Below, one piece after another: positions 63,486-64,000 of a DNA stretch of 64,000 nucleotides. Origin of the DNA: Leptotrichia wadei (lineage in GTDB: Bacteria; Fusobacteriota; Fusobacteriia; Fusobacteriales; Leptotrichiaceae); assembly GCF_007990545.2 (NCBI RefSeq), contig NZ_AP019829.2:124001-188000 (forward strand). Reading direction: 5' to 3'. The notes beneath the pieces were generated by a model. That model did not search any database, was not told the DNA's origin, and saw only the letters and a list, made by a program, of their open reading frames with translations. A program made the translations under genes and the position numbers. Position 1 is the stretch's first letter. Every line of letters starts with the position of its first letter.

Positions 63486-63620
63486 ATGAATGAAGAAAGA
63501 ATATTGGAACCTAAGGAATTGGGAGAGGACAATATTCAGAAAAGTTTACGGCCAAGGACTTTTAAGGAATATATTGGCCAGCAGGATTTGAAAGAGAAGA
63601 TGAATATATTTATTAAATAG
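63486..63620 (+). pseudogene. ruvB: ruvB, first 43 codons, interrupted by an intron-bearing element
   Basis: RuvB is the Holliday-junction motor. The protein begins MNEERILEPKELG and reads SLRPRTFKEYIGQQDLKEKM, as in RuvB N-termini, then NIFIK and TAG at 63618-63620. The family would continue after NIFI with a helix and the [9 protein letters not shown] P-loop, which is absent. GAGGAG lies before ATG 63486. The break falls right at the left end of a group I intron-like sequence. If the intron splices, the exon end is probably after 63613 and RuvB is intact as RNA. The remainder of ruvB lies beyond the window. Confidence 0.85.
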
Positions 63621-64000
63621 TGCAAGAACACTCGCGACTTTAGTCGTGATATGAATTGCACAAAAATTTTAGTAAGCATATAGGGAAACTTGTATGTGGA
63701 CACGGAGCAAAACCGTGCAACAAAGAAACTGAATTGCTGGGAACTCTTAAAGCTAGTATAACCACAACATAATATCTAAGTGAAAACATGGTATAAGTGT
63801 GATGGTGGCGAAAGCAGAAAAAATATACTAGATGGTGTAAGGTTAAATCCTAAGTGCTAAGATAATAGACAATCAGCAACTAAGCCTGAAAAGGAAAGTT
63901 CAACGACTATCCCTCGTGAGGGGAGTACAATACAAGCGGTTGGTATTGGAAGTGGTTTCGCCTAAGTCCTTGAAATAGGATATGGATAAGATATAGTCTG
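63614..64000 (+). mobile_element. Left part of a group I intron within an IS200/IS605-like element (IStron-like)
   Basis: The visible 387 bases have a group I intron core: AATCAGCAACTAAGCC (63870-63885), then GTTCAACGACTAT (63898-63910, R-type), and AAGATATAGTC (63988-63998, S-type). GACTAT and ATAGTC form P7. TCCT/AGGA (63967-63980) fits P8. The element starts with a hairpin (63620-63661) like an IS200/IS605 end. P1: exon and intron bases 63610-63617 (TTATTAAA) pair with TTTAGTAA at 63668-63675, with a U-G pair at 63613, the predicted 5' splice site. No transposase or TnpB is visible because the window ends. Confidence 0.8.
63620..63661 (+). repeat. Subterminal hairpin of the inserted element
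   Basis: GTGCAA (63620-63625) pairs with TTGCAC (63656-63661). An inner stem TCGCGAC (63632-63638) pairs with GTCGTGA (63643-63649), one wobble, around TTTA. This resembles the subterminal hairpins (CGACTTTAGTCG type) recognised by TnpA of IS200/IS605 elements. It would sit inside the P1 loop of the intron. Confidence 0.7.

Follow-up and report, generated by a model that had tools for sequence, protein, structure and literature searches.

The ruvB gene of Leptotrichia wadei raises the question of how RuvB could still be produced from a gene whose reading frame is broken by an inserted element after 42 codons. This gene lies at the right end of the window, i.e., the whole stretch of 64,000 bp analysed here (positions 124,001–188,000 of contig C1 of genome G000, 2.34 Mb in two contigs). 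All features described are on the forward strand, and those beyond the window are given in coordinates of locus L009, to which 62,999 is added to obtain window positions. We consider it highly probable (about 0.87) that the sole ruvB gene carries, just after a TTTAT motif, a group A IStron, i.e., an IS200/IS605-type transposon with TnpB combined with an IA2-like group I intron, which would splice out of the RNA. The locus displays the element ends, a corresponding empty site, an intact tnpB, a conserved group I core and a restored reading frame.

The sole ruvB gene is split by a 1,935-bp element

The 5′ exon of ruvB (63,486–63,613) comprises 42 codons and the first two bases (AT) of an isoleucine codon. 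It matches the intact ruvB genes of relatives, with 127/127 identical bases in genome G002, 118/127 in G003 and 98/127 in G022. In the interrupted gene, the frame reads ATG AAT ATA TTT ATT AAA TAG, so that the codons for NIFIK are followed by an in-frame stop at 63,618–63,620, as noted in the initial annotation, which would end translation of the unspliced RNA. The same annotation predicted a further ruvB exon beyond position 64,000; this exon begins at L009:2550, directly after the end of the element, and is recognized as RuvB by the profile NF000868 (462 bits, matched from profile position 42). The 42-aa 5′ exon alone did not reach any NCBIfam model.

Read across the junction, the two exons encode ...KEKMNIF, an isoleucine codon composed of AT and A, and 25 further residues. 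Joining TTTAT to AAAGGCTGCT produces exactly the junction of the uninterrupted ruvB gene of G003. The empty site of this relative, ATGAATATATTTAT directly followed by AAAGGCTGCTAAAATGAGAAATGAG, has the same bases as the joined flanks, so that there is no target duplication, and the ruvB genes of G002 and G022 differ from the joined flanks by a few bases. A cut after 63,613, inside the isoleucine codon, as proposed from the window, thus restores both the frame and the ancestral sequence.

RuvB is present in all 40 genomes searched and is split in that of L. wadei. In the other 39, it is encoded by an open frame of 332–368 aa, with room for both exons (three were inspected as sequence). The second RuvB match in the L. 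wadei genome is a distant AAA protein, and the split gene is the sole copy. The initial annotation called the host gene essential for recombination; RuvB is important for this process, although viability does not generally depend on it.

Borders and transposon part of the element

The element extends from 63,614 to L009:2549, the end of the window (64,000) falling inside it. It is preceded by the TTTAT target (63,609–63,613), which is common to the copies of the family, is the presumed TnpB target motif and ends at the predicted 5′ splice site after U63613. The IS605-type left-end hairpin reported in the initial annotation is present at 63,620–63,661. The 3′ terminus is GTGGGAGGTTCAG; it ends with GGTTCAG and hence has the TCAG end of group A IStrons. 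Both ends are common to the four full copies in this genome.

Genes for TnpA and TnpB had been predicted to the right of the window. We found an intact tnpB (L009:1226–2470, 414 aa) but no tnpA within the element, four full TnpA genes and one fragment being located elsewhere in the genome. The TnpB protein scores 201.7 bits with the family profile NF040570 (cut-off 100) and also matches PF01385 and PF07282 (IS200/IS605 ORF B). Its RuvC residues D194 and D380 are invariant in 15 of 15 aligned proteins. At our placement of the canonical RuvC-II glutamate, G285, there is no acidic residue. Six residues ahead of where the first zinc-finger cysteine would stand (Ala338 here) is the invariant E331, at an alternative glutamate place described for some TnpBs and Fanzors (PMC10711439). 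A phmmer search of TnpB against the PDB returned nothing, and a profile search one weak stretch in a deactivated Cas12f (E = 0.0047).

The tnpB gene is framed by an inverted repeat with 32-nt AU-rich arms, forming 28–31 pairs in 46 of 55 copies; in the other nine, the arms were missed by the search pattern. The last 187 bases of the element fold at −43.1 kcal/mol (z = −3.37), CUGAAC and GUUCAG forming a helix that closes across the predicted 3′ splice site. The bases used in this fold are also those engaged by the long-range inverted repeat. The motif TGTGAAC(G/A)A, located after P9.2 and ahead of the IS part, is found in 54 of 55 copies, including that in ruvB.

A conserved group I intron core

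A match to a group I intron model, on which the proposal of a split ruvB had been made to depend beforehand, was obtained with RF00028 at L009:673–1021 (window 63,672–64,020), with 47.9 bits and an E-value of 2.9e-11. This is just below the curated cut-off of 50 bits, which is exceeded by two sister copies elsewhere in this genome (51.3 and 52.2 bits). These matches came from shorter stretches and from the genome search; RF00028 was missed in three wider scans (the window, which cuts the match 20 bases short, ten loci at the gathering threshold and a 2-kb E-value scan).

P1 is formed by 63,610–63,617 and the internal guide sequence 63,668–63,675, with all 8 pairs, including U63613·G63672, as the initial annotation had drawn it; the 8 pairs are present in 53 of 55 copies. 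It is followed by P2 (63,677–63,696), a hairpin with a GAAA loop, and by the 5′ strands of P3 (63,725–63,729, with 63,955–63,959) and P4 (63,734–63,739, with 63,874–63,879). The P5 extension (63,753–63,831) has an outer helix formed by 63,753–63,760 and 63,824–63,831 with two-sided changes at 5 of 8 pairs, and P6 occupies 63,880–63,898. The pairing of P7 (GACTAT, 63,905–63,910, with ATAGTC, 63,993–63,998, the latter within the core word AAGATATAGTC) is exact, and P8 is present (63,961–63,985), both as previously annotated. The P7.1 and P7.2 hairpins (63,911–63,948) are a feature given for class IA2; this class label rests on published criteria, and P7.1, P7.2 and P9 were drawn and counted.

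We evaluated a hand-drawn core of 77 pairs on 28 aligned introns, nine of them divergent. Pairing is possible in 95.4% of 2,150 cells, compared with 33–40% in slid controls, a result that is favoured by the structure having been drawn on the sequence of the ruvB copy itself. Two-sided changes occur at 35 pairs, compared with a shuffle mean of 25.3 (0 of 500 shuffles as high); many of these changes set apart the same two subfamilies (9 vs 19 sequences) and thus represent a small number of events. Further pair types are no more numerous than in shuffles (61 vs 61.3). In P3, which contributes one half of the pseudoknot, 4 of 5 pairs have two-sided changes, and P7 is nearly invariant. One drawn P5 pair is formed in none of the 28 introns, and for P2.1 and P5 the share of paired cells is 75%. 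Conservation of a P10 with the 3′ exon was looked for across copies and not found.

Most IStron copies lie in sense orientation inside genes

We surveyed this genome and seven related ones, scoring up to 14 candidates per genome, and obtained at least 55 copies with both ends. Other intron types (L014, L015, L103, L118–L120 and L129) and remnants (L016–L018) were excluded, and L011, an intron-only remnant outside genes, was dropped, leaving 54 copies. The TTTAT target of the ruvB copy is shared by nearly all of them (L125 differs). The core word is present in 54 of 54, and the intron core is broken in L097 alone, which lacks the guide sequence and lies two codons ahead of its host's stop codon. 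By comparison, tnpB is broken (longest frame below 400 aa) in 8 of 54.

Of these copies, 49 lie in sense orientation inside genes: in 48, joining the flanks gives an open frame of 90 aa or more, and L087 is located in exon 3 of cbiJ, which the frame test missed because this exon has no start codon. None of the 54 has solely an antisense frame of at least 90 aa; L104, L110 and L132 have antisense frames of 110–155 aa beside longer sense frames. The 48 sense copies correspond to 44 distinct sites, 39 of them with at least five codons on either side. The distribution over insertion phases 0, 1 and 2 (13, 6 and 25 observed; 18.1, 10.4 and 15.5 expected) points to a weak bias (p = 0.010).

Hosts, named by separate searches of each exon, include ruvB, mutL, uvrB, recG, recJ, sbcC, mfd, dnaB, queA, nagB, smpB, metF and agmatinase genes, among others. 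Both exons indicated the same family for mutL, uvrB, recG, recJ, sbcC, mfd, dnaB, nagB, smpB, two queA sites and a ClpB-type gene; exon searches gave no match for L102, L107, L122 and L138 and a weak one for L126. G002 has a single DnaB, and its gene is split (profile positions 2–310 and 311–433); in four other genomes, the protein is whole. In nagB, an element occupies one site in three species, and dN/dS is about 0.02–0.13 in both exons; the elements diverge by 6.6–8.9% and their hosts by 2.6–8.7%, which makes plain vertical descent uncertain. DNA-repair genes are hosts at 8 of 41 distinct sites (p = 3.6e-4 for a background of 4.4%, 0.0027 for 6% and 0.015 for 8%), in a post hoc comparison whose 4.4% background is an estimate from gene lengths and whose 41 sites omit three at gene ends and L087, the true denominator being up to 45.

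Two further observations concern individual hosts. The start codon itself is split by the IStron in L085 (G002; AGGATAATTTAT followed by G) and L132 (G022; GGGAGAATTTAT followed by G), i.e., TTTAT followed by G, so that splicing would be needed to create the start in the RNA. The queA gene has been struck at three different sites (L084, L100 and L105/L127) in four genomes, which seems more than chance would produce in a gene of some 1 kb.

Other introns and remnants were also observed in the genus. The cbiJ/cobK gene of L. wadei (L015:484–2367, within 216,800–222,000 of contig C1) consists of three exons (PF02571 positions 2–65, 66–185 and 186–233) separated by two group I introns that lack a long ORF, follow TTGAT and end with TTCAG. 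The same two sites are occupied in G003 (L129) and in G002 (L087, the 3′ border of the first intron being beyond the range searched), and in G002, the TnpB IStron in the last exon is the third intron of this gene. We found no paper on a group I intron in CbiJ in the literature searched. A divergent intron type is represented by L118, L119 and L120 (G006), L103 (G001) and L014 in L. wadei; L118 has the highest RF00028 score observed (72.1 bits) and a shorter inverted repeat. The L. wadei genome also contains two remnants of about 50 bp (L017 and L018), in which the left-end hairpin is directly joined to the right end GGAGGTTCAG, and one (L016) with about 85 left-end and 195 right-end bases, without intron core or tnpB.

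Alternatives to splicing

The alternative that survives best is a recent insertion with poor or no splicing, ruvB being in effect knocked out and its loss tolerated. The insertion in ruvB is found in this genome only, among the 40 searched, and may thus be young and not yet tried by selection; its RF00028 score is also slightly under those of the two sister copies. However, the core words and the helices P1, P3 and P7 are preserved, both ruvB exons are open, and elements at other sites occupy genes still under selection (dnaB of G002 and nagB), so that we regard a knocked-out ruvB as improbable.

Plain IS605 copies of the same genome served as controls. From 20 TnpB matches outside IStrons, 18 plain IS605 loci were taken (the other two being short frames), and 17 were scored, one having no clear right end. 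None of the 17 is located in a frame of at least 90 aa in either direction, compared with four of the four full IStrons (Fisher p = 1.7e-4); this control is somewhat weakened by the fact that TTAAC, which precedes 15 of the 17 plain copies (the left border of L255 being uncertain), can contain a stop codon.

This comparison bears on a second alternative, in which TnpA of other IS605 copies would excise the element precisely from the DNA in some cells, the intron being of little importance. Such excision would yield the identical junction, and four full TnpA genes are available. Nevertheless, at least three plain IS605 copies, long enough to be of the type with its own TnpA, differ in their ends (TTAAC and TTCAC), so that cross-recognition of the IStron is not obvious; plain IS605 copies also excise, yet none of the 17 lies inside a gene, and the conserved core is explained only by an intron. 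We consider restoration at the DNA level very improbable. Just as improbable is a third reading, in which both the sense orientation and the location of the copies would simply follow from insertion into the template of the lagging strand, combined with co-directional genes, and would be silent on splicing. The strand distribution of the copies is indeed replication-like in G002 and, in part, in G006, and 42 of 53 window ORFs are on one strand. Such a bias would set orientation, however, and would not explain why 49 of 54 copies are located within genes. In window ORFs, TTTAT occurs less often in sense (250) than in antisense (382), and plain IS605 copies should then behave alike and do not, with the reserve made above.

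Relationship to known IStrons

IStrons are already known, including from Leptotrichia, and have been reported from Fusobacterium (PMC1924603). Tourasse et al. (2014; PMC4227781) assign CdISt1, FnISt1, FnISt2 and LbISt1 of Leptotrichia buccalis to group A, with TTGAT, ATTAT or TTTAT as targets, no target duplication, a TCAG 3′ end, a class IA2 intron (P7.1/P7.2 and an extended P9), a U·G pair in P1 at the 5′ splice site, a GAAC-A motif after P9.2, ORF B and no intact ORF A. The ruvB element shares its TTTAT target, TCAG end, P7.1/P7.2, GAAC-A motif, ORF B and absence of ORF A with this group (PMC4227781), the likeness to LbISt1 and FnISt2 being based on published description rather than on sequence. 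In contrast, its 32-nt AU-rich repeat of 28–31 pairs is in the range given for group B (15–34 pairs) and not for group A (6–10 pairs), a character described there as a subtle difference between groups and not as a definition (PMC4227781). Within the literature searched, this was the sole paper found on IStrons in Leptotrichia. In the texts searched, we found no earlier mention of an IStron in ruvB: the accessible main text of PMC4227781 does not name the gene (its supplementary tables could still list it), and no group I intron in ruvB was found in the literature searched, as judged by titles and the beginnings of abstracts.

Among 104 loci with TnpB relatives, 80 were kept; their TnpBs are 55–70% identical and nearly all from Firmicutes, records near L. 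wadei perhaps being omitted. RF00028 matches were found in 6 of 16 such genomes and not in the other 10, adjacency being checked for Peptostreptococcus faecalis alone. The IStron of this Firmicute (L143), recognized here, encodes a TnpB 70% identical to ours with an RF00028 match (69.5 bits) directly upstream and likewise follows TTTAT and ends with GGTTCAG, in a different host gene. Among plasmid records, Finegoldia magna gives the best match (72.2%, covering 85% of the query). Matching phage records number 108, including 78 from Staphylococcus; in the best 10 of the 108, the match spans the intron core or else a portion of tnpB.

A model for the expression of the split ruvB

The first reading of this locus as a ruvB gene split by an IStron-like group I element is borne out in structure, place and kind, and we infer that the element is spliced from the ruvB RNA. 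The sequences indicate that the inserted RNA probably excises itself, so that RuvB can still be made. Unspliced RNA would be translated only up to the TAG at 63,618, short of the ribozyme core. The ribozyme would pair UUAU of the 5′ exon with GUAA in P1, and guanosine would attack after U63613. Through the inverted repeat, the tnpB ORF would be folded out of the way, and the 3′ splice site, predicted after the last G of GGUUCAG, would come to lie at the core. Ligation of AT to A AAG GCT would then yield RuvB (MNIFIKAAKM...).

The 3′ end alone is predicted to fold into an omegaRNA-like structure for TnpB, and a single fold thus suggests that splicing and guide-RNA use may compete for this end. 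Zedaveinyte and colleagues reportedly described such a splice-or-guide conflict in Science in 2024, in which one 3′ end is used for splicing or else for the guide RNA of TnpB; it is said to have been shown on another element, and the fold points to it here. TnpB guided by the ruvB 3′ exon could cut element-free ruvB alleles, so that the element would be retained, and TnpA for its movement would be supplied in trans.

The pattern across the genus is of more interest than the single case of ruvB. The occurrence, within one genome, of intron-bearing IS605-type copies inside genes and intron-free copies outside is a direct prediction of splicing making insertion harmless. IStron splicing is put to a natural and stringent test by the sole ruvB, the sole dnaB and start codons existing only after splicing. 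DNA-repair genes are numerous among the hosts, in contrast to the statement that IStrons, unlike other group I introns, enter genes of diverse function (PMC4227781). A tentative and rather doubtful extension is that Leptotrichia IStrons, with 19 copies or more in one genome, form a genome-wide set of inserts removable by splicing and persist preferentially in replication, recombination and repair genes, the output of which would depend on the choice between splicing and omegaRNA. If true, the set of IStrons would couple the state of the transposon to the repair capacity of its host.
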